This document shows positions 10,356 through 21,752 of a stretch of DNA of 64,000 nt, piece after piece. This DNA is from Aliiroseovarius subalbicans (GTDB taxonomy: Bacteria > Pseudomonadota > Alphaproteobacteria > Rhodobacterales > Rhodobacteraceae), in assembly GCF_022678625.1 (NCBI RefSeq), contig NZ_JALBYQ010000004.1, positions 310,001 through 374,000 of the forward strand, read 5' to 3'. A model generated the notes under the pieces. It did not search any database. It was given only the letters and a program-made list of their open reading frames with translations, and was not told the origin of the DNA. Each line of letters starts with the position of its first letter. Position 1 is the stretch's first letter. Made by a program: the position numbers and the translations under genes.

Positions 10356-11279
10356 ATGCTGGCCATGATTTCGCACTACGATTGCCGGGAACACGACGCG
10401 GGGCCGCTTCACCCTGAAAGCGTCGAGCGTCTGGATGCGATCAACAATCAGCTGATCATGTCGGGCATGGATTACGTCATCCGCCACTATGACGCGCCGC
10501 TTGTGAGCCGAGAGGAATTGGAACGCGTGCATGTGGGGGACTATCTTGATCGCGTCTATGCGCTGGCCCCCGGTCAGGACATGAAATCGGTTGAGATCGA
10601 CGGCGACACGGTGATGTCACCCGGCACCCTGCGCGCCGCCGAACGCGCCGCCGGGGCGGGCGTGATGGGGGTCGATCTGATCATGAAGGGCGAGGCCAAG
10701 CCGGTCTTTTGCGCCGTGCGCCCGCCCGGCCACCACGCCGAAAGCGACAAGGCAATGGGCTTTTGCCTGTTCAACAACATCGCCGTCGCCGCCGCCCATG
10801 CGTTGGAGGCCCATGGGCTGGAGCGGGTCGCGATCATCGACTTCGACGTGCACCACGGCAATGGGACTGAAGAAATCTTTGCCGGTGACAAACGCGTGTT
10901 GTTCTGTTCCAGTTTCCAGCATCCGTTCTATCCTTTCACCGGCCACGAAAAGGAAACCGACAACCTTGTCGACGTGCCCTTGTCAGCAGGTGCGGGCGGC
11001 AAGGAATACCGCGAAGCGGTGACGGAACACTGGCTGCCGCATCTGAACGATTTCAAGCCTGAATTCGTGCTGGTCTCGGCCGGGTTTGATGCCCACGTGG
11101 CCGATGACATGTCGTCGCTGCAACTGACCGATGCCGACTATGGCTGGTTGACGCAGGAGTTGAAGAATGTCGCCGATACCCATGCCGACGGGCGGCTGTT
11201 GTCGATGCTCGAAGGCGGTTACGAACCCGCCGCATTGGCGCGTTCGGTGGTGAAACACCTCGACGTGCTTCTGGGGTGA
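10356..11279 (+). CDS. Histone deacetylase family protein (class II/AcuC-like)
   Basis: This 307-residue zinc-dependent amidohydrolase of the HDAC superfamily has the catalytic histidine pair H126-H127 (in PPGHHAE). The metal ligands D164 and H166 lie in DFDVHHGNG, and the third, D245, in AGFDAH. Bacterial relatives remove acyl groups from protein lysines (AcuC), polyamines or acetoin-related substrates; this one cannot be assigned precisely. It starts 56 bases after the Pat-like acyltransferase gene on the same strand with a strong AAGGAGG site. An acylation/deacylation pair is therefore a reasonable inference. Confidence 0.92.
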   Translation: MLAMISHYDCREHDAGPLHPESVERLDAINNQLIMSGMDYVIRHYDAPLVSREELERVHVGDYLDRVYALAPGQDMKSVEIDGDTVMSPGTLRAAERAAGAGVMGVDLIMKGEAKPVFCAVRPPGHHAESDKAMGFCLFNNIAVAAAHALEAHGLERVAIIDFDVHHGNGTEEIFAGDKRVLFCSSFQHPFYPFTGHEKETDNLVDVPLSAGAGGKEYREAVTEHWLPHLNDFKPEFVLVSAGFDAHVADDMSSLQLTDADYGWLTQELKNVADTHADGRLLSMLEGGYEPAALARSVVKHLDVLLG

Positions 11280-11593: not shown

Positions 11594-12661
11594 ATGAAAA
11601 AGCTGACCCGGCCGTTCTGGAACCGGTGGCGGGCCGGGGATGTGGGCGATGACGTGCTGTTTGCCTTCCTTGAGGAAATCAGGTCGCTGGACGACTGGCC
11701 CGACGCCGCCCTGCGCATGATTGCGACGAACGAGGCGACGTATAAGGCAGGGCGCGCAGGGATGACCCAGGTCGAAGAGATCGCCGCCCTGCGCCGCCTA
11801 TCCTATATGTGCAACCTGGGGCACTGGGGTATCCTGCCGCTGAATGAAGCCAAGCGCCGGGCATATACCAAGGCGCGCGACTACTACGTTCAGGCCGAAA
11901 GGCTGGCCTTTGGGGATCGATTTCAGCAATTCAGTATCGCGTGGAACGGGCAGGCGTTTCCTGCCAACCTGCACTTGCCCAAGGGCGATCCCGCACCGCT
12001 TGTGATCTTGGTGCATGGCATCGATGGCTGCAAGGAAGAGCATTTGGCAACCGAGCTTGCCATGCTGGATGCGGGTTTTGCCGTCGCCGCCTTCGACGGG
12101 CCGGGCCAAGCGGAATCCTTCCTGCTCAATGGCATCCTTTGGGACGCACGGTTTCCCGAGGCGATCACTGCCTGCATCGACCAGTTGGTGGATCATCGGG
12201 GGGTGGATGCGACCCGCGTCGGCATCATGGGGATGAGCATCGGCGCGCTGTGGACGCTGGCGGCAAGCTCCGGCGACGCGCGGGTTAAGGCAGTCTATGA
12301 CCTTGGCGCACCGATCAACACGCGGGCTTTCAATCGGGTTCCGTTCATCATCAAATCGAAGATGTGCCAGATCACTGGCGCCACGTCGGACAAGGATATT
12401 TCTGACGTGCTGTCGCGCAATTTCATCGACAGGGACGAAATCCTGAACGGCATCACCGCCGCCGTCCGCATCGTGCACGGTACCAAGGACCGGGTCGTGT
12501 CGATGGAGGATAAGCACTGGTTGCATGAAAGATTTCAGGCGCTGGGCGTGGCAAAGGCGATCGAGATGCGTATCTTCGAAGACGCGGACCATTGCTGCAC
12601 CAGTCATATCCCGGAAATTCGCCGCGATATGGCCGATTTCTTTCACCGGTTCTTGCGGTGA
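11594..12661 (+). CDS. Alpha/beta hydrolase with helical N-terminal domain (FrsA/DHPON-hydrolase-like)
   Basis: This 355-residue hydrolase begins with about 120 residues of helical cap-like sequence. A classic alpha/beta-hydrolase core follows: the oxyanion-loop region LVHGIDGCKEE (139-149), nucleophile S215 in GMSIG, acid D299 in HGTKD and base H333 in DADH. The arrangement resembles the 2,6-dihydroxypseudooxynicotine hydrolase/FrsA group, which cleave C-C or ester bonds, but the substrate is unknown. I prefer the ATG at 11594; the frame is open to 11459, only 33 bases after the tRNA, and no start has a strong ribosome-binding site. Its last 19 bases overlap the convergent PAP2 gene. Confidence 0.8.
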   Translation: MKKLTRPFWNRWRAGDVGDDVLFAFLEEIRSLDDWPDAALRMIATNEATYKAGRAGMTQVEEIAALRRLSYMCNLGHWGILPLNEAKRRAYTKARDYYVQAERLAFGDRFQQFSIAWNGQAFPANLHLPKGDPAPLVILVHGIDGCKEEHLATELAMLDAGFAVAAFDGPGQAESFLLNGILWDARFPEAITACIDQLVDHRGVDATRVGIMGMSIGALWTLAASSGDARVKAVYDLGAPINTRAFNRVPFIIKSKMCQITGATSDKDISDVLSRNFIDRDEILNGITAAVRIVHGTKDRVVSMEDKHWLHERFQALGVAKAIEMRIFEDADHCCTSHIPEIRRDMADFFHRFLR

Positions 12662-13236
12662 AACCAGATCAGGCCAAGCGCGCCCAACAAGGCGCCGCTG
12701 GCCACGTCGATCACGAAATGCTGGTGGGTCAACAGGGTCGAGAGGCTCATCAGCCCGGCCCAGAGGGCCATGATCCCGTTGCGCAGAGGCCGGCCGCGCG
12801 CAGCCATCGCGCCCGCGCAGGTGATCGCCAAAGTCACATGCAGCGACGGGGCGGAATTATAGGTCAGGTTCACCTGATCAGCGACCTGGAAGACCAGCGG
12901 TGTCACTGCGTCCAGGTGGCCGGTGGGGGCCACGGGAAAGGCCAGGTAACACAAGCCCGCGACGCCGGTTTGTGCAGCAAGGACTAGGGCCAGGCGTGTG
13001 ACATCCGCGCGGTTTTCAAACAATGCCAGAGGCAGCAAAAGCAGCGGCGTTATCGTCAGGTAGATCCAGGCAAACTCCGGGACGAAGGGCATCGCGCGGT
13101 CCCAGGCGGTCTCGATTGACGGCAACGGTCCGCGTTGTGCCGTGATCCAGTTCGCGCTGGCATAAACCGCCCAGAACCACGCGGCAAAGCCCGCGCCGAT
13201 CCCGCTGCGTGCGCGCCAGTCCTCAAGGCCCGGCAT
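12643..13236 (-). CDS. PAP2-superfamily membrane phosphatase
   Basis: This 197-residue integral membrane protein has about six hydrophobic segments. It keeps the PAP2 catalytic motifs PSLH (130-133) and a histidine motif LLTHQHFVIDV ending in H173 and D177. The first PAP2 motif (KxxxxxxRP) is not obvious, as in inositol-phosphorylceramide-synthase-like relatives. It would act on a lipid phosphate or transfer a phospho-headgroup at the membrane. The ATG at 13236 lies inside the end of the desaturase gene (14-base overlap). It is the last gene of the nine-gene operon, and its stop overlaps the convergent hydrolase. Confidence 0.82.
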   Translation of the reverse strand: MPGLEDWRARSGIGAGFAAWFWAVYASANWITAQRGPLPSIETAWDRAMPFVPEFAWIYLTITPLLLLPLALFENRADVTRLALVLAAQTGVAGLCYLAFPVAPTGHLDAVTPLVFQVADQVNLTYNSAPSLHVTLAITCAGAMAARGRPLRNGIMALWAGLMSLSTLLTHQHFVIDVASGALLGALGLIWFHRKNR

Positions 13237-14143
13237 CGGCGTCCCCCGGCAATGGACGGGGCCCTGCCCACATCTGGCGATAGATCTGCCAGAACGTCGG
13301 GCGCGGGTCGCTGGGGCGGACGTGGTGGGGCAGGTCGGTCCAGGGGATCGACGGGTCACGGTGATGCGCCAGGTGATAGTGATAATTCAAGAAGATGCGC
13401 CGGGTGACCGGGTTCACTTTCAGGTTCCATGCGCCTTCGGTCCGGTCCAGTTCGGAAAACGCGTGGTCGGTATACTGCAACGACGACCAGTTCAGCGCGA
13501 AGGCGGCATAGCACGCGAGCCACCCGGTCAGCGATATGTCCAGCGCCACGATCAATACCAGCTGCACCCCGGCAGCAATCGCGATGTCGGTGCGCGCGCG
13601 CCAGACAGGCACTTCCTCCAACGCGTCCAGAAATTCTTGCGCGCTGGTTTGTTTCGAAAACCAAGCGCCCTTGTCGCCGAACAGGTGGCGCCAGCGGATC
13701 AGGTCGGCGGCGATGAAATAGATCACTGCGAACAGCGGCAGGGCGATCCAGTACAGCCCAGTCAGGATCATGTACCATTGCACCGCCTTGATCAGGCGGT
13801 TCTCACCGGGGGCGTAGTAGTCGAACCGTTCAAGTTCGGTTCGGTTGTTGCGATGATGCGCCAGGTGAAACGCCCGTTGCAGAGAAAACGCGGTGGGGAA
13901 GAATCCGGCGATGATCCTTCCTGCGTTTTCATTCACCACGGGGCGTGGGTGAAAGTGACGGTGCACCGCTTCGTGCATCAAGGCATACATCGTGTTGCCG
14001 CCGAACGAGAAGGCGATCATGGCTGGGATCACGCCCCACCACGGGGCGTGCGAGGCGACCCAAAGGCACGCGGCAAGCCCGGCAATACCGCCGAGCAGGA
14101 TTGTCAGGTTCAGGCGTCCAGGGATCTGCACAGGTTCACTCAT
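13223..14143 (-). CDS. Membrane fatty-acid desaturase/hydroxylase family protein
   Basis: This 306-residue membrane di-iron enzyme has the three histidine boxes of the desaturase superfamily: HEAVH (57-61), HLAHH (93-97) and HYHLAHH (255-261). An additional DHAF lies at 226-229. Hydrophobic segments lie at about 12-55, 120-148 and 185-220. Members introduce double bonds or hydroxyl/keto groups into acyl chains, sphingoid bases or carotenoids; the substrate is not predictable from sequence. It overlaps the Rieske gene by eight bases at its start and the PAP2 gene at its end. Co-translation with an oxygenase and a lipid phosphatase suggests a lipophilic substrate. Confidence 0.88.
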   Translation of the reverse strand: MSEPVQIPGRLNLTILLGGIAGLAACLWVASHAPWWGVIPAMIAFSFGGNTMYALMHEAVHRHFHPRPVVNENAGRIIAGFFPTAFSLQRAFHLAHHRNNRTELERFDYYAPGENRLIKAVQWYMILTGLYWIALPLFAVIYFIAADLIRWRHLFGDKGAWFSKQTSAQEFLDALEEVPVWRARTDIAIAAGVQLVLIVALDISLTGWLACYAAFALNWSSLQYTDHAFSELDRTEGAWNLKVNPVTRRIFLNYHYHLAHHRDPSIPWTDLPHHVRPSDPRPTFWQIYRQMWAGPRPLPGDADAGP

Positions 14144-15128
14144 CCGCGGCGGATTGGGCGCAGAAATAGCGGTGCAGGCGGCGCGAATAGGCGTCGCCGG
14201 GTGTGTGTTCGTGGGCGGGTGGGGTCCAGCGCAGGCCTTTCATCACTTCGAAATCCTTGGCTAGGAAATCGATGAACAGTTTCGACGTCAGCCTCAGGCG
14301 CAGCCAATCCCAGAACGTACCGCGTGCCCCGTTGATGCCCACGATCCCGCGCACCAACGTGCCACCTTTGCCGTCCGGGCACATCGACAGGATGCAGAAA
14401 CTGGGCCTGCCGACCTCGCTTTGCACCAGAATCATTGACCCCTTCAGCGCGGTCATGGACGCGTGAATGCTGTCGTTTGAGATCCATTTCACCACCCGGT
14501 CGGCCAACCCGCGCCCGGTCACACGGGTGTGGTAGGCGATGCGGAAGGCACCGGGGACGGGCTCTTCCACCAAAGGGTCTTCCCGCAACACGCGGTCGTG
14601 GACAGAGGCCAGATGCTCCATGTCGAACCCGTTCGCCACCAGCGAGAACCAGGTGGCGTCGCTGTCCAGAGTTCCTGCAAATCGGGTGATAACCGGGCCG
14701 TTCGCGGCAAGCACGGGCACGGGCAGCGGAGGTGGGTCGCCGGGTCCGACAAAGACGAAGATGGCCGATAGTGTTTCTTGGGTGGGAAAGGTCCGCTGCA
14801 CCAAATCGCGTGATTTCTGCCCGTCCGGGCGCAGGAACGCACCGTCCAGCCCGATTTTGCGGTGATGCATGGCGCACAGGATGCTGTCGTCCGCAGCTTC
14901 GGCATGTTTCAGGTGGCACCCCATATGCGCGCAGTGCGGCGCATAGGTCGCGACCTTCCCGGAAGGCGCGCGATACAGAACGTATTCGCGGTCCAGCAGG
15001 GTGCGGGTCAGAACCTGCCCCGGTTTCAACTCATGCGACCCGGCCAGGATGTACCAGTTCGCAGGCAGGGCGGGCAGGGTCGAAACCGGCGGCAACGCCG
15101 CGCTGATCTGCCCTTCTGGAGCGGTCAT
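14136..15128 (-). CDS. Rieske non-heme iron oxygenase, alpha-subunit type
   Basis: This 330-residue protein has an N-terminal Rieske [2Fe-2S] domain with ligands C66-x-H68 and C85-x2-H88. The catalytic domain carries the mononuclear iron motif FDMEHLASVH (H172, H177). Such single-component oxygenases need a ferredoxin and reductase from elsewhere and hydroxylate, demethylate or desaturate small organic molecules. The ATG at 15128 is chosen because it overlaps the preceding stop by four bases (ATGA); an in-frame start at 15200 would lie inside that gene. Position in the operon points to oxidative tailoring of the cluster product. Confidence 0.88.
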   Translation of the reverse strand: MTAPEGQISAALPPVSTLPALPANWYILAGSHELKPGQVLTRTLLDREYVLYRAPSGKVATYAPHCAHMGCHLKHAEAADDSILCAMHHRKIGLDGAFLRPDGQKSRDLVQRTFPTQETLSAIFVFVGPGDPPPLPVPVLAANGPVITRFAGTLDSDATWFSLVANGFDMEHLASVHDRVLREDPLVEEPVPGAFRIAYHTRVTGRGLADRVVKWISNDSIHASMTALKGSMILVQSEVGRPSFCILSMCPDGKGGTLVRGIVGINGARGTFWDWLRLRLTSKLFIDFLAKDFEVMKGLRWTPPAHEHTPGDAYSRRLHRYFCAQSAADE

Positions 15129-15703
15129 GACCGACCTCGACGCCCCAGAAAGAAGCCCAACACAAGGCCAAGGACTACGCAGGCAGCGACGATCATCCAC
15201 AGGTATTGCCGCAGGCCCGTGTCGATCGGGTTGTCGAAGATATTGGCGGAAAAATGCATGCCGGTGATCTGCCAGGCGCCTGCGTCGTTTGACATGGTCG
15301 CGCTCCAGCGCAGGGGGATTTCGAAATCCAGACCCGCGCGCATGGTGAAATGCGCGGTGGAGGTGCCGGTGGCCACCGCGGCGCGATTGTCCGCATAAAG
15401 CGCGGCCAAGCTGTCGACATCAAAGTCGATTTCAAGCGCCTGCACCATACCGTCGGAGGCATCCATCATCCGTTGATAATAGGCGCGCACAGCGTCCTTT
15501 CCATGTACGACTTCGTTGTTCATCGCCGTGAACATGATGTCGTCACCTACGTGGGTCAGGAAGGCGTCCATGTCGCGGGTCTGGAACGCTGCAATCGCCC
15601 CGTCCCGCATGGCGCGAATCTCGTTATGGATGGCTTCAACGTCCTGGGCAAAAGCTGGCAGGGTCAAAAGCGCGAACAGTGGGGCAAGAAGGACTTTTAA
15701 CAT
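15125..15703 (-). CDS. Exported NTF2/SnoaL-like protein with C-terminal membrane anchor
   Basis: This 192-residue protein starts with a signal peptide (residues 1-19, cleavage near AFA-QD). A SnoaL/DUF4440-type NTF2-like fold follows (about 23-150), beginning EAIHNEIRAMRDGAIAAF. A single C-terminal membrane helix (about 167-187) ends in GRRGRS. The predicted topology puts the NTF2-like pocket in the periplasm, tethered to the inner membrane. NTF2-like proteins act as small enzymes or ligand-binding modules; no catalytic residue set is recognisable. It has a good ribosome-binding site (AAAGGT) and lies 33 bases downstream of the GNAT gene. Confidence 0.75.
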   Translation of the reverse strand: MLKVLLAPLFALLTLPAFAQDVEAIHNEIRAMRDGAIAAFQTRDMDAFLTHVGDDIMFTAMNNEVVHGKDAVRAYYQRMMDASDGMVQALEIDFDVDSLAALYADNRAAVATGTSTAHFTMRAGLDFEIPLRWSATMSNDAGAWQITGMHFSANIFDNPIDTGLRQYLWMIVAACVVLGLVLGFFLGRRGRS

Positions 15704-15736
15704 GAAATACCTTTCTGTGACTGGGTGAATCCTAGC

Positions 15737-16804
15737 TTAGAGCAGGCTGATTTCAACCTTCGATTGGGCAAGAGCGGTGGGCGGAGGCAGCGGGGCATCA
15801 TCCCAGGTGACTCCATAAAGTTGGCTGTCGTAGCGGCGGTGCCTGACGGCTGAAAGGGCTGTGAGCAGCGGGTCGTCCTGCACGAAGCCCAGCGTGGCCA
15901 TATCCAGCCCGCGCCGCGCCGCGAGCGTCAGCCCCGCGCGCAGAAGCGGAACCGCATCCCCTGGGTCGTCCACGGTGAAGAACGCCAGATGCGCGGTGTT
16001 GAGTTCGTCCCCCACCTTGGGAAGCCGGGGGAGGCCGGTCAGCGGTGCGATTGCGTTCAGTGCCGGGCGCAACAGCGCCAACCGCTGGTCATAATCGGTG
16101 ACAACGAAAGCACGAAGCGGGCGTTGGTCCCAGAGGGCAGTGACACCAGTGATCTCGCCCTCGCGTTCGATGATCAGCACGTCCTCGGGTGCCAGGCCAG
16201 GGAAATCCAGGCTGTCGAAGGCGGGCGCCAGCGGGCGCTCAACATTGCGAGAGTTCAAATAGGTCAATATCGCGGGCACGTCTTGGGGCGTGGCCAGCCG
16301 ACCAATGGGTCGTCCCTGCTTGGTGGCGCGAAAGGCCAGGGTGGCATAGTCCAGCAGTGGGGCGAACCGCGGGAACCCGTCCAACCCAGCCTCCAACAGC
16401 CGCTTAGCACGCAAATTGTCCGATAGGATCGTGGCCATGTACCAGCCGGGCTCATCCGGGCCGCTTGCACCCTTGCGAAAGGCGTGAAACCCGCCGCGCA
16501 GCACGCGCGCGCGGTTGCGGAAATCCTGATCGACACGCAGCCCGCCAACCCAGCCAATGCCCTGCCGCTGTCCGTCGAAATACCCCGGTAGGATCGTACG
16601 CGTGGCCATGCCCACCAGCTGCCCGCCCCGGGCGCGCCCGATATAGGTATCAGCATGCCCGCCCGGATGCAGGCAGGTTGTATCCCCTTGATACGAAAGT
16701 GTTATCCAACCTGGCATGTCGCTTTGCGCCAGCAATCTGCGCATCGCGTCGGCATCCCCCGGCTTGGCCCGGTGAAAGGTTATGTCCACCCCCGGCGCGA
16801 TCAC
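15737..16804 (-). CDS. GNAT-like N-acyltransferase, two-domain
   Basis: This 355-residue protein begins with a GNAT-type fold (ITFHRAKPGDADAMRRLLAQ, then a core with GQRQGIGWVGGLRVDQDFRN at about 79-98). A second, GNAT-like half from about residue 175 opens with RLATPQDVPAILTYLNS. This looks like a tandem GNAT. The acyl donor and acceptor are unknown. Its ATG overlaps the radical SAM stop by four bases, so it is translated with it. In this operon it could attach an acyl group to an amine made or exposed by the GH3 or radical SAM enzymes; that is inference. Confidence 0.7.
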   Translation of the reverse strand: MIAPGVDITFHRAKPGDADAMRRLLAQSDMPGWITLSYQGDTTCLHPGGHADTYIGRARGGQLVGMATRTILPGYFDGQRQGIGWVGGLRVDQDFRNRARVLRGGFHAFRKGASGPDEPGWYMATILSDNLRAKRLLEAGLDGFPRFAPLLDYATLAFRATKQGRPIGRLATPQDVPAILTYLNSRNVERPLAPAFDSLDFPGLAPEDVLIIEREGEITGVTALWDQRPLRAFVVTDYDQRLALLRPALNAIAPLTGLPRLPKVGDELNTAHLAFFTVDDPGDAVPLLRAGLTLAARRGLDMATLGFVQDDPLLTALSAVRHRRYDSQLYGVTWDDAPLPPPTALAQSKVEISLL

Positions 16805-18156
16805 GCGACCTTCAGCAACTCGCCCTGCCAGGCCGGGTCTCCGAACGGCAGCAGGTGGCGTTTGTTGACCTCACCCCGGTGCAGCAGGTTGATGATGAAA
16901 AACGCACGCATCATGGTGAATTCCCCCCGGTTCGCCGGTGAAAACCCGCGTTTGGTCATGGCGCGAAGGGTATAGAAACGCTTGCGCGCGTCAACGCAAT
17001 GGGCGGTGATCTCTTCGCCCGCCATGCCGCCGGTATCGAACGGCAGGGTGTTGTAGGCATAGGTGTCATCCAGCCACCAGGCATCGAACTTCAACCGCCC
17101 TTCGGCCTCCAGCCGTTGATACAACGGGGTGCCGGGAAACGGGGTCAGGTGGTTGAAGGCGGCCAGGAAAAAGTCGTTGTCCTGGGCGAAGTTCACCGCA
17201 TCGTCGAAGGTCTGCGCCGTTTCGGTGCCATAACCGAAAATGAACGTGCCATAGACGCGAATGCCATGACGCGCGAGGTTCTTCAGCGCGTTTTGATACC
17301 CCCCACCCATCGTGTTGAATTTCTTGCCCATCGCGCGCAGCGTGTCGCGCTCCAGGCTTTCAAACCCGATCAGGACACCGCGACAGCCCGATCGGGCCAG
17401 CGCGGCCACAAAGTCTTCATTGTGGGCCGCGTCGATGCTCATCTGCGTGACCCAGCGGATGTTTTCGGGCGCCAGCGCCTCGGCCAACTCCTGCGCCTTG
17501 GGGATTGAGCCCGCGAAATTGTCGTCGACGAAAAAGAACAGCTTTTTCTGGTGTCGGATCTCGCGCAGTTCGGCGACGATTTCATCCACCGGGCGGCGGC
17601 GGTGGGTGCCGCCAAAGAACGTCTGGATTGCGCAAAATTCGCACGGGAATTTGCAGCCGCGCCCGGTTTCGACCAGCCCCAGAGGCAAGTAGCGTTTGCC
17701 TTGGAACACCGAGCGGTCGAACCTCACGCCGGCAAGTGAGTTGCGATCGACACCCTTGTAACGCGCCTTCAACGTGCCGTGGCGAGCGTCGTCCAGAACC
17801 TCGGGCCAAGCCGCTTCGGCCTCGCCGATCACCACGGTTTCGGCGTATTGCGCGACCTCGTCGGGCATCAGGGTGGCGTGAAAGCCACCCATCACCACCG
17901 GCACGCCCCGGCGCCGGTATTCCGACGCGATCTGATAGGCACGTTTGGCAGTGTACGTCTCAACGGGGATCGCTACCAGGTCGGTGGGTTCGTCAAAGGC
18001 GATGGGCTCCATCCGGTCGTCGTAAAACCGGGTTTCGACCTCGGGAGGCGTCAGCGCCTTCAAAGCGGCGACCGGCAGGCTCTCCATCTGCCAGGTCCGC
18101 ATGTAGTTTTCCCCGGCACGACGGCCGATCGATGGGTGGACGAAGGTCACCTTCAT
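16801..18156 (-). CDS. B12-binding-domain radical SAM enzyme (second of a tandem pair)
   Basis: This 451-residue enzyme has an N-terminal cobalamin-binding-type Rossmann domain (about 1-135, with VPVVMGGFHATLMPDEV). The radical SAM TIM-barrel follows, with the cluster motif C168-x3-C172-x2-C175. The later VLIGFESL and FGYGTET segments are common to the BchE/HpnP/HpnJ group. The canonical base-off DxHxxG cobalamin motif is not evident. Family members methylate unactivated carbons, rearrange rings or form C-C bonds. The start at 18156 overlaps the preceding stop by four bases; a longer frame to 18321 lies inside the upstream gene. Confidence 0.9.
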   Translation of the reverse strand: MKVTFVHPSIGRRAGENYMRTWQMESLPVAALKALTPPEVETRFYDDRMEPIAFDEPTDLVAIPVETYTAKRAYQIASEYRRRGVPVVMGGFHATLMPDEVAQYAETVVIGEAEAAWPEVLDDARHGTLKARYKGVDRNSLAGVRFDRSVFQGKRYLPLGLVETGRGCKFPCEFCAIQTFFGGTHRRRPVDEIVAELREIRHQKKLFFFVDDNFAGSIPKAQELAEALAPENIRWVTQMSIDAAHNEDFVAALARSGCRGVLIGFESLERDTLRAMGKKFNTMGGGYQNALKNLARHGIRVYGTFIFGYGTETAQTFDDAVNFAQDNDFFLAAFNHLTPFPGTPLYQRLEAEGRLKFDAWWLDDTYAYNTLPFDTGGMAGEEITAHCVDARKRFYTLRAMTKRGFSPANRGEFTMMRAFFIINLLHRGEVNKRHLLPFGDPAWQGELLKVA

Positions 18157-19514
18157 GCCGCACGCCCCGCGTATCCGACGGGCCAGTCGCAGGTGTAGTG
18201 GCTGTGCAAATGGTTGGCGTAGTATCGATAACCGAAGTTCGCCAGAAGCGAGATCGGCAACTGCGTGCGCGAGTGGGCAAGCCGCCGGGCGATGTTGGGG
18301 GCAGAGTATACCTTCTGCCATGCGCGCACGTGACCTTCCTGCAACTCTGCGACGCTCATCGCTTTGGGTTGAAATACGACGTGCTGACCGTCGTAAAGCT
18401 CCCAGTCGCGGGTCAGAATGCGGCCTTCGTCGGCCAGCCGCGTGTAAAGTGGGGTTCCGGGAAACGGGGTCTGGATCGCGAACCGCGGAAGGTCGATCCC
18501 GGTCTGCACGGCGAAATCGGCGGTGCGGTCGAACACGTCCGGGGTGTCTTCGTCCTGGCCAAAGACGAAACAGCCATAGATCAAGATGTTCAATCGGTGC
18601 AGATCGTCGATCAGATTTGCATAGAGGTCGGGGTCATTGAAGCCCTTCTTCATGCCTCCAAGCGCGGTCTGGGAAATGCTTTCAAACCCGATCAGCACCC
18701 CGGAACAGCCCGAGCGCGCCATCAGCTGCATAAGCTCTGGGTCGCGGCCGATCAGGCTGGTGACCAGCCCGAACCAGCGGATGTTCAGAGGAATCAGCGC
18801 GGTGAACAATTTGCGCGCATATTTTCGGTCCGAGATCAGGTTGAGATCCAGGAAGATGTTGCGTTTTGCGCCCCAAGTTTGAATGTCCTGAACCACATGC
18901 GCCACCGGTTTCTGGTATTGCTTGCGGCCCCAGGCGCTGGGCACGACGCAGAACTCACAGGCATGGGCGCAAGCGCGGGTGGCTTCGAACACGGCCTGGG
19001 TGATGTAGTGTTTCTTGTTCAGACGATTCCGGTCCGGGGTCACCGGGGTATCCAAACTGAAATCCGCCCCCTGATCGTATCGCGCACGCATCGCTCCGGC
19101 GGCGAAATCGCGCAACAGGCGGGGCCAGGATGTCTCTGCGTAACCCACCACGATAGCATCCGCATTCGCTGCAGCCTCGTCCGGCATCAGGGTCACATGC
19201 GGGCCGCCCAGCACAACGGGAATACCGCGCGTGCGCAGTTTCGCTGCCAACGCATAGGCGCGCGGGGCGGTGCCGGTGATCACGGTCATCCCGACCAGGT
19301 CGGCGTCGATGTGATCGGGTAGATCCTCGATGCCTTCGTCGATCAGGGTGAAGTCGATGTTAAGCTCTGCGGGGGCGAGAGCGGTCAGCGTGGTCAGGGT
19401 CAGTGGCTGATAGCGCAGGGATTTCTTGAAGATGCCGCCGGAATGACGATAGAGCGGCCCCTTGGGCGAAATCAACGTGACCCGAAGGGGCCGGTTTCCA
19501 ACCAGATCGTTCAC
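18153..19514 (-). CDS. B12-binding-domain radical SAM enzyme (first of a tandem pair)
   Basis: This 453-residue enzyme is homologous in layout to its downstream neighbour. An N-terminal Rossmann/B12-type domain (about 10-140, with IPVVLGGPHVTLMPDEA) is followed by radical SAM motif C182-x3-C186-x2-C189. I chose the GTG at 19514 because AAGGGAG (complement of 19525-19531) is correctly spaced and the start falls 16 bases after the GH3 stop. An ATG at 19556 would overlap GH3 by 26 bases. The two paralogues share the fold but differ clearly in sequence, so they probably catalyse successive, different steps on one scaffold. Confidence 0.9.
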   Translation of the reverse strand: MNDLVGNRPLRVTLISPKGPLYRHSGGIFKKSLRYQPLTLTTLTALAPAELNIDFTLIDEGIEDLPDHIDADLVGMTVITGTAPRAYALAAKLRTRGIPVVLGGPHVTLMPDEAAANADAIVVGYAETSWPRLLRDFAAGAMRARYDQGADFSLDTPVTPDRNRLNKKHYITQAVFEATRACAHACEFCVVPSAWGRKQYQKPVAHVVQDIQTWGAKRNIFLDLNLISDRKYARKLFTALIPLNIRWFGLVTSLIGRDPELMQLMARSGCSGVLIGFESISQTALGGMKKGFNDPDLYANLIDDLHRLNILIYGCFVFGQDEDTPDVFDRTADFAVQTGIDLPRFAIQTPFPGTPLYTRLADEGRILTRDWELYDGQHVVFQPKAMSVAELQEGHVRAWQKVYSAPNIARRLAHSRTQLPISLLANFGYRYYANHLHSHYTCDWPVGYAGRAA

Positions 19515-19530
19515 TCGAAATAAACTCCCT

Positions 19531-21048
19531 TCAGCCCCAAATCTCGCGGGCCGCATCGGGTTTCAGCAAAGCAGGAGTCTTGACGTCTGACAAGCGGGCA
19601 CCGCGCGAAAGCCTGTGCTTTACGTAGGTGTCGATCAGGCCGGGACAAGGTCGCGAACGCAGTGGGGCCAACTGGCCAAGGGCGCGGGCATGGGCATATT
19701 GCGGGTTTTCGCGCAGGGTTGCTTCGACATGGGCCAGCGCATTTTGTGGCACGGTCTCGGTGTCTAACCACAGCTCATACCCGGCGTTCGGGATCGTGAC
19801 CGGAGCCAGGATCGCGGTGACCGGTAGTTGGGAAAGCGCTTTCAGGACAAAGGCCTCGGTGAGTTTTTCACCGACCAGATCTGCGCCGGCGCCACGTCCG
19901 GAAAAACGCAGCATCGGTAGGCCGAGGGCCGCCGCAATGCCTTTGGTGGCCAAGTGCGGTGCGGCAGGGCCTTCGCAGATGACCCGATCGCCGATGTCAT
20001 AGCGCAGGAGCCCACCAGTGGTGGAGACGATCAGGTCGTAACTCTCGCCAGGCTCCAACGCATCGACCAGATGCATGTTGCCAGCCACGTCGCGAAATTC
20101 GAAAAACGCTGAGCGAAGGGCAGGCAGTGGAGCGGGCAGACCCATCAGCGGGAAGGTGAACAACCCTTCTGTCGCCAAAAGGCCTTTGGGCTGAAACGGA
20201 ATGCCCGACAGCCGCGCGTGCAGATCGGCGGCGGGACGGGCTGAGCTGGCGTCCGCCCAAGCCGAGATCAGCCGTAGGTTCGGCCATAGATCGGCCGGAT
20301 CGGTGGAATGAATTTCGCGAGCGCGTTCGGGATTGGGGGGCAGCCCATATGCGCCCGAATGGAGCGTGGCCAGGACATCCTCGGTCTGGGTGTCCAACAC
20401 GTCCAATAGGCCTGTCAGGAACGACGGGCTCCAAACCGATATCAGCCGCAGATCGGGTGCGGACAGCATCATGGCAAGCGTAGCCAGCGCCCAGTCGTCA
20501 TAATCGCTGAGGTCGTCCAGCGCCGGGTGATACAGAAGCACCTGTGCCATCGTGGGCGCGAGATCGCCGAAATAGGCAAGGTCCGAGCCAAGACCGACCG
20601 GCAGGCTTCCGATGGGTGCGCGCGGCTCGGTCAGCGCGGGTGAGATGGCGAAATAGGCTGGGCCAGGGGCGATGTCGGGGTCTGCGGCCAAAAAGTCGCC
20701 GAACCAGGCCAGCAGGCCGTGGCGGAAATCGTGAAGCAGGCTGGTGGTCATCGGCACGCGTTTCTGTCCACCAGAGCTTCCACCGGTCAGCTCGAACGCC
20801 ACCGGCGCTTCGTGGGTCAGGGCGGCCAGGTCGCCTGCCGCGATCCGGTCGATCCACGGGGTGAAATCGTCATAGCTGCGGATCGGCACGGTGGCGCGAA
20901 ATTCGTCAAGGCTGCGTGCATCGGTCAAGGTCGATTGCCCGATCACCCGTGACAGGGTCCAGAGCTGCGCCTGTTTCGGGTCGCGAAAGGCGGGTAGATG
21001 CGACAGGAGCGCATCCTGCGCGGCTTCAGTCACCCCGGCCCAGGTCAT
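19531..21048 (-). CDS. GH3 auxin-responsive-promoter family acyl-adenylating ligase
   Basis: This 505-residue enzyme is of the GH3/ANL superfamily. The nucleotide-binding loop TGGSSGG lies at 88-94, and a later adenylate-binding region contains LIVSTTGGLLRYDIGDRV (about residues 328-345). The C-terminal lid domain is present. Plant GH3 enzymes adenylate a carboxylic acid and conjugate it to an amino acid or amine. Bacterial homologues are mostly uncharacterised and occur in natural-product clusters. Here it probably activates the carboxylate of the cluster intermediate or a fatty acid. It overlaps the preceding GNAT-like gene by four bases. Confidence 0.88.
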   Translation of the reverse strand: MTWAGVTEAAQDALLSHLPAFRDPKQAQLWTLSRVIGQSTLTDARSLDEFRATVPIRSYDDFTPWIDRIAAGDLAALTHEAPVAFELTGGSSGGQKRVPMTTSLLHDFRHGLLAWFGDFLAADPDIAPGPAYFAISPALTEPRAPIGSLPVGLGSDLAYFGDLAPTMAQVLLYHPALDDLSDYDDWALATLAMMLSAPDLRLISVWSPSFLTGLLDVLDTQTEDVLATLHSGAYGLPPNPERAREIHSTDPADLWPNLRLISAWADASSARPAADLHARLSGIPFQPKGLLATEGLFTFPLMGLPAPLPALRSAFFEFRDVAGNMHLVDALEPGESYDLIVSTTGGLLRYDIGDRVICEGPAAPHLATKGIAAALGLPMLRFSGRGAGADLVGEKLTEAFVLKALSQLPVTAILAPVTIPNAGYELWLDTETVPQNALAHVEATLRENPQYAHARALGQLAPLRSRPCPGLIDTYVKHRLSRGARLSDVKTPALLKPDAAREIWG

Positions 21049-21752
21049 GCGCCCAGCCCCCGGACAAAAGCCGCGCGGGCCCGTGGGCGCAGATTGTCCA
21101 CCGACAATTCACACAGGCAGAGCAACTCTTCGCCCTTCGCATGGCCGGGGTTGCGATCCTCAAAAAACCGTGCGTGTCGGTTGCGCGTGGGGGTGTCCTC
21201 ACCAGCGTATTCAGGTCGCAGTGCCGTGGGGCAAGCGCCGGGGCGCACGATGCCGCGCCGGGTGTCAAATGCCTGGGCAAACCGGGTCGTGCCCAGCTCT
21301 TGCATCAGCGCGGCCAGGGTCGGTGGCGTGGCCTCATCCGGCGCGGGATAGGCGTGATAGGTGAAGGCGGGAAGGTAACGATAGGTGCGATGCCCCTTTG
21401 AAATCAGGAGCCAAAAAAGCGGCACGTCGGGCCGTTCAGCCTTCACCCGACCCGCATGTTCGATCCAGCGCATCGGCAGTGTCTGAGCGCCCCAATGGTC
21501 GCGCCTCAGGATTGTGTCGCCGGAAAACAATACTCGGACCGGGCCGGTGGCGGTGTTGTGTTCGGACAATTCGATTGTGGAAAAGCCAACCACCTCGCCT
21601 TTGGCACGCAGCACGATCACCCAGCTTTTGCGCGCCAGGTCCGCATCGAACACAGCCCGGTTCGTTGGTGTGTAATGCGCCGCATAAAGCGCAAACAGCG
21701 CGTCACGCAGCGCCGGGGTGATCTGGGATTGGGCAAGAATGTCCGACTGCAA
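21045..21752 (-). CDS. GNAT-like protein, first gene of the radical SAM/GH3 operon
   Basis: This 235-residue cytoplasmic protein has an N-terminal GNAT-like half: ALFALYAAHY, then WVIVLRAKGEVVGFSTIEL, then a third-strand region FSGDTILRRDHWG. The C-terminal half is less familiar and contains two cysteines in LLCLCELS (about 209-216). Residues typical of acyl-CoA binding (R/Q-x-x-G-x-G/A) are only weakly met by RRDHWGAQTL, so acyltransferase function is a guess. It opens the operon; 176 bases separate it from the divergent P-type ATPase gene, where the operon promoter should lie. Confidence 0.62.
   Translation of the reverse strand: MQSDILAQSQITPALRDALFALYAAHYTPTNRAVFDADLARKSWVIVLRAKGEVVGFSTIELSEHNTATGPVRVLFSGDTILRRDHWGAQTLPMRWIEHAGRVKAERPDVPLFWLLISKGHRTYRYLPAFTYHAYPAPDEATPPTLAALMQELGTTRFAQAFDTRRGIVRPGACPTALRPEYAGEDTPTRNRHARFFEDRNPGHAKGEELLCLCELSVDNLRPRARAAFVRGLGA

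Follow-up and report, generated by a model that had tools for sequence, protein, structure and literature searches.

In the 3.5-Mb genome of Aliiroseovarius subalbicans, a stretch of 64,000 nucleotides (hereafter the window) contains nine nearly fused genes that combine carboxylate activation and acyl transfer with radical and oxidative tailoring, raising the question of whether they serve a single pathway and, if so, what that pathway makes. The initial annotation had described nine same-direction genes of these families working together with no PKS, NRPS or terpene synthase, and the description holds: all nine open reading frames are intact, lie on the minus strand between window positions 12643 and 21752, and are transcribed from 21752 to 12643, with Pfam and NCBIfam profiles agreeing on the families of all but GNAT2, which was assigned from its model (Table 1). 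Two family calls were refined, PAP2 to the Aur1-like PAP2_3 type and GNAT1 to a tandem GNAT.

Table 1. The nine genes in order of transcription. Coordinates are window positions based on the most likely start codons; family calls were made by Pfam/NCBIfam profiles.
Feature	Coordinates	Strand	Basis
GNAT2, single GNAT-fold acyltransferase, SGDT motif, GH3 partner	21045..21752	-	No Pfam match; AF2 model is a GNAT
GH3-family ATP-dependent acyl-amide synthetase	19531..21048	-	PF03321, 86 bits (cut-off 23.6); nucleotide-binding residues invariant
RSAM2, B12-binding radical SAM enzyme	18153..19556	-	PF02310 and PF04055; CxxxCxxC in all orthologues; own clade
RSAM1, second B12-binding radical SAM enzyme	16801..18156	-	PF04055 and PF02310; CxxxCxxC in all orthologues; own clade
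GNAT1, tandem-GNAT acyltransferase, NMT-like fold, conserved C-terminus	15737..16804	-	AF2 model, Foldseek, structure alignment; weak GNAT Pfam match
SnoaL/NTF2-like protein, apparent signal peptide and C-terminal membrane anchor	15125..15703	-	PF13474, 43 bits; signal and anchor read from sequence
Rieske non-haem iron oxygenase	14136..15128	-	PF00355, 47 bits; Rieske and mononuclear-iron ligands conserved (5 orthologues)
Membrane di-iron desaturase/hydroxylase (DES)	13223..14143	-	PF00487, 85 bits; His boxes conserved (10 orthologues)
PAP2_3-type (Aur1-like) membrane phosphatase/phosphotransferase	12643..about 13236	-	PF14378, 44 bits (cut-off 27); PSLH and HxxxD invariant (9 orthologues)

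Four-base overlaps join GNAT2 to GH3, RSAM1 to the end of RSAM2, GNAT1 to RSAM1, and the Rieske gene to the NTF2 gene; the desaturase gene overlaps the Rieske gene by 8 bases and is itself overlapped by PAP2 by about 14 bases, and a gap of 33 bases separates GNAT1 from NTF2. The start of RSAM2 is uncertain (ATG at 19556 or GTG at 19514). This spacing suggests that the nine genes form one operon; a promoter and terminator scan of the cluster gave no more sites than shuffled sequence. A divergent cation P-type ATPase gene lies upstream, and a convergent peptidase S9-like gene overlaps the end of PAP2 downstream. A histone-deacetylase-family gene (PF00850) lies close to the cluster's 3′ end on the opposite strand (window 10356–11279); no conservation with the cluster was seen.

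A GH3 scan of one genome per species yielded 23 relatives, whose flanks were searched with all nine proteins, and further genomes were then added. Open reading frame calling was crude, with antisense frames in GC-rich loci ignored unless supported by homology, and contigs ending inside the cluster (L003, L013, L016, L018, L020, and L051) cannot show gene absence. The initial annotation had named the co-occurrence of GH3 with both radical SAM genes as a check on its reading, and the three genes do occur together, in order, across phyla. The full order GNAT2-GH3-RSAM2-RSAM1-GNAT1, which we term the core, is kept in Alpha-, Beta-, and Gammaproteobacteria, Campylobacterota, and Bacillota; Verrucomicrobiota (L008) and Planctomycetota (L023) have these genes grouped in a different order. 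GNAT2 adjoins GH3 in most loci. One Clostridia locus (L053) consists of the five core genes alone. Grouping of the same genes across phyla is more than chance would give. Some loci carry further radical SAM genes: RSAM3 and RSAM4 are adjacent wherever both occur, and a fifth is present in some. A small membrane protein family without a Pfam match (F12) is encoded 3′ of RSAM4 (L024:17972-18640; also in L005, L015, and L017).

A Citrobacter portucalensis from a gull also carries the core on an IncFIB/IncFII plasmid (L037:15139-27234, plasmid NZ_CP134684.1), together with three more radical SAM genes, PAP2, NTF2, and the desaturase. This mobilizable IncF plasmid has alpha-2-macroglobulin genes adjoining the cluster; no near copy of the cluster was found in E. 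coli genomes, nor was a second plasmid copy found.

The four remaining genes (desaturase, NTF2, PAP2, and Rieske) are a separable, largely O2-dependent tail module, contrary to the possibility that the Rieske-desaturase-PAP2 part is always attached. All nine families occur together in a member of Verrucomicrobiales (L008), in a member of Ectothiorhodospiraceae (L024) and a second member of its class (L050), and in two species of one genus from a proteobacterial class different from that of the host (L040/L042). Elsewhere, the desaturase, NTF2, and PAP2 genes are present without the Rieske gene (L005, L017, L023, and L037), tail genes are absent from the Bacillota (Clostridia) loci, and the content and order of the tail vary among loci. 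The only other member of the host family found with GH3, a fragmentary MAG of a second genus (L065), keeps the window order over GH3-RSAM2-RSAM1-GNAT1-NTF2-Rieske-DES; in this MAG (G022), GNAT1 and the desaturase gene are each split over more than one reading frame, by sequencing error or decay. Across a sample of 299 genomes of the phylum, desaturase matches at E ≤1e-25 were confined to the three core-bearing genomes, two of them congeneric and hence representing two lineages.

The Neisseriaceae provide a different view of the association. Both Neisseria elongata and an Eikenella MAG hold GH3 and, at a separate locus, GNAT1 (E 1e-77 and 1e-82), and tail genes lie elsewhere in the genome, as DES-PAP2 in the former and NTF2-Rieske-DES in the latter; a search at E 1e-60 detected no radical SAM gene of the cluster type in either. 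GNAT2 and a VanA-type Rieske gene lie beside the N. elongata GH3 gene. Retention of GH3, GNAT1, and tail genes in one genome though they are unlinked is strong evidence of shared function. In Eikenella, a gene judged by eye to be squalene/phytoene synthase-like (L075:10380-11195) lies some 2 kb away from the isolated GNAT1 gene.

These observations bear on whether the nine genes are chance neighbours or parts of several unrelated pathways, as the variable tail might suggest, along with relatives such as Mesorhizobium that have GNAT2-GH3 without the remaining genes. Given that the same set is repeatedly clustered in distant lineages and co-occurs unlinked in Neisseriaceae, we find this explanation largely contradicted and scarcely credible. 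The unity of the pathway, an inference in the initial annotation, is well supported by the cross-phylum clustering, the kept order, and the unlinked retention; the tail is not always attached.

Covariation of the core genes speaks for the shared pathway. Pairwise identity matrices correlate at 0.76–0.95 among the core genes (values inflated by the split between Clostridia and the others), at 0.77–0.93 among DES, PAP2, and NTF2, and at 0.3–0.7 between core and tail, the last being only moderate and counting against the reading as a single nine-gene pathway. In a maximum-likelihood tree of 55 radical SAM proteins, RSAM1 to RSAM5 form separate orthologue clades; Bacillota sequences stand beside those of other phyla within each of RSAM1–4, and in RSAM5 they are joined by the Citrobacter plasmid. 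The plasmid RSAM1 groups with Betaproteobacteria and the Campylobacterota sequences are nested among Gammaproteobacteria, so that the radical SAM gene trees do not follow the species. We read these clades as probable old paralogues that have been moved jointly by horizontal transfer. Plasmids of Synechocystis, Paraclostridium, and Treponema carry lone related radical SAM genes that sit outside such clusters; these served as outgroups in the tree. A recent island was considered for the cluster and rejected, as cluster GC (0.61–0.63, against 0.63 for the window) gave no compositional sign of recent transfer.

Prevalence was low throughout: GH3 was found in 2 of 296 genomes of the host family (295 genera sampled) and in 4 of 83 Neisseriaceae, RSAM2 (E ≤1e-100) in 3 of 398 genomes of the phylum, and two other classes gave 3/274 and 3/245.

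Regarding the individual enzymes, all RSAM1 and RSAM2 sequences contain the CxxxCxxC motif together with a B12-binding domain, the pattern of B12-binding radical SAM enzymes, and the host encodes CobS, making a cobalamin supply plausible. HpnJ, ladderane-associated, and BchE-like proteins are the closest named models and have the same B12-binding and radical SAM architecture; however, the best match reaches 98 bits against a cut-off of 578 (RSAM1 with the HpnJ model TIGR03471, 97.9 against 577.6), and the cluster proteins form the clades RSAM1–5 of their own. Membership in the ladderane radical SAM family was likewise rejected (RSAM1 with TIGR04072, 93.5 bits against 360), RSAM2 scoring lower with both models, and with scores so far under the cut-offs the nine genes were not assigned to a ladderane or hopanoid cluster. 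Both proteins fall below the cut-off of every named family. These same matches, together with a weak CrtR-like NCBIfam match of the desaturase, could be taken to suggest HpnJ- or HpnR-like radical SAM enzymes that modify an isoprenoid membrane lipid such as a hopanoid. Considering that all of these matches are far below cut-off, that the clusters contain no isoprenoid genes, and that their hosts range from Clostridia to Citrobacter, we hold this to be quite improbable; nothing in the analysis points to the isoprenoid product that the initial annotation had entertained beside a fatty-acid one.

The tail enzymes retain their expected active-site features. The Rieske CxH/CxxH motifs and the mononuclear-iron ligands are kept across orthologues, and the PAP2 protein keeps PSLH...HxxxD with no invariant Kx6RP, an Aur1-like pattern that places it in the PAP2_3 branch.

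The GH3 protein is a member of PF03321 with nucleotide-binding residues invariant across 19 relatives, and its profile matches plant GH3 structures, the solved relatives being amido synthetases. We found a single characterised bacterial relative, OlsH, which uses ATP to convert free fatty acid into N-acyl ornithine (PMC12493201). The OlsH/OlsI pathway of planctomycetes and the present cluster would share a bacterial GH3 that starts acyl-amide formation, but the window GH3 is partnered instead by two GNATs and two radical SAM enzymes. The window GH3 does not belong to the OlsH family (NF052613, 15.3 bits against an equivalog cut-off of 620), and the ornithine lipid pathway was accordingly rejected for this locus; an alpha/beta-hydrolase gene occurs in L008, L040/L042, and L050, and not in the window. 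For GNAT2, the AF2 model (pLDDT 92.5) has a GNAT fold (VIA Z up to 12.8), and a fold search returned generic GNATs only, with no functional clue. FeeM-type N-acyl amino acid synthases, in which a GNAT fold makes N-acyl amides, match GNAT2 at Z 11.4, a score tied with many other GNATs; we know of no GH3 or radical SAM partners for these synthases.

GNAT1 proved more informative. Its AF2 model (pLDDT 86.9) has N-myristoyltransferases (NMTs) as best Foldseek matches (E 9e-13), and in VIA-align it gave Z 22–23 (best 23.4) over about 290 residues against 50 NMT entries, so that the predicted protein would share with NMTs the full-length tandem GNAT fold. The C-termini also align: the GNAT1 model ends at residue 355, which is matched to the final aligned NMT residue (human 496, Aspergillus 492, yeast 455), and in human NMT1 the carboxylate of the C-terminal Gln496 is the catalytic base (PMC7048800). 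In all 15 aligned GNAT1 orthologues, which span Clostridia to Acinetobacter, the chain stops exactly at [ED]-x-[AGS]-x-[LIM], as it does in the two Neisseriaceae proteins; the L015 protein is an exception. The two groups differ in that identity is 12–15% and that GNAT1 is bacterial and clustered with small-molecule enzymes. By sequence profile, the NMT similarity is weak (E 0.04); the NMT_N and NMT_C profiles did not match the window GNAT1, and NMT_C matched 1 of the 15 members (E 0.0037). The tandem GNAT Eis also uses its C-terminal carboxylate, and another bacterial tandem GNAT, MAB_4324, ranks close behind the NMTs in Foldseek. For these reasons, we propose from the model that GNAT1 is built, and may work, like a eukaryotic N-myristoyltransferase, and do not claim that it is one. 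The fold match to protein N-myristoyltransferases could also be taken to mean that GNAT1 is a protein N-acyltransferase and that the operon serves to acylate and anchor some protein or peptide, which is very improbable since the clusters hold no conserved peptide or substrate-protein gene and GH3 ligases act on small molecules.

Taken with the membrane desaturase, an NMT-like GNAT1 makes an acyl-chain product likely. Our preferred reading, in which we place about even confidence, is that the nine genes are one specialised, horizontally moved pathway whose product is an amide-linked, probably fatty-acylated small molecule. In such a pathway, judging from family and fold, GH3 would activate a carboxylate with ATP and join it to an amine, GNAT2 would acylate an amine from an acyl thioester, and GNAT1, by analogy with NMT, would transfer a long acyl chain to a primary amine, with the C-terminal carboxylate of GNAT1 serving as the base. 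The two radical SAM enzymes, RSAM2 and RSAM1, may change unactivated carbons without O2 through cobalamin radical chemistry (methylation, cyclisation, or oxidation). In aerobic hosts, the added tail would finish the molecule at the membrane, the desaturase and Rieske oxygenase acting on it by desaturation and oxidation and the PAP2_3 and anchored SnoaL-like proteins probably acting at the outer face. More tentatively, and with somewhat less than even confidence, we suggest an undescribed class of acyl-amide natural product, widespread but sparse in bacteria, defined by a triad of GH3, GNAT, and bacterial NMT-type enzymes without PKS or NRPS, up to five paralogous B12 radical SAM editors, and an optional aerobic module.

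Further relatives lack radical SAM genes. An Acinetobacter baumannii locus (NZ_CP104448.1; L039:5533-12897) encodes, in this order, EmrA-like, EmrB-like, GNAT2, GH3, TolC-like, and GNAT1 proteins, the efflux-type calls having been made by eye. Such an arrangement suggests that an exported product is formed by the three-gene head on its own, as a possible minimal version of the pathway. In Nostocaceae (L025:542-8775 and L026), GNAT2 and GH3 flank genes for two Rieske oxygenases, two di-iron (ferritin/AurF-like) proteins, a ferredoxin, an OlsE-related fatty-acid hydroxylase, and a hexapeptide protein; these loci look like an oxygen-only variant of the pathway. The efflux-type genes around the Acinetobacter GNAT2-GH3-GNAT1 set, the AurF-like and VanA-type Rieske partners in some relatives, and the activity of plant GH3s on aromatic acids would all suit an exported, non-lipid amide of aromatic or alkaloid type, with GH3 activating an aromatic acid, the GNATs adding short acyl groups, and the radical SAM enzymes and oxygenases decorating the ring. 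Such a product nevertheless seems unlikely to us, as it accounts poorly for the NMT-like GNAT1, the membrane desaturase, and PAP2_3, and no locus contains aromatic-precursor genes.

The initial annotation could match the set to no pathway, and a literature search likewise found none described. Full-text searches of open-access PMC that paired GH3 with radical SAM, Rieske, desaturase, or B12-binding returned no paper on this combination; those on the GH3 auxin-responsive promoter returned mostly plant work, and an Acinetobacter search there was without result. The component superfamilies are known, and it is the gene combination that appears new, as does the finding that GNAT1 models as an NMT-like tandem GNAT with its C-terminus aligned with the catalytic C-terminal residue of NMT.

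If the fatty-acylated amide pathway is correct, these loci would be a new class of biosynthetic cluster without a PKS, NRPS, RiPP, or terpene core, which searches based on core enzymes may overlook. The carriers include gut anaerobes, oral Neisseriaceae, environmental bacteria, and one plasmid, and with a minimal core of five genes the product can be tested for directly. One pathway would hold radical SAM steps that need no O2 alongside oxygenase steps that depend on it, and GNAT1 would represent a bacterial, probably small-molecule branch of the NMT fold, with a bearing on the origin of NMTs.
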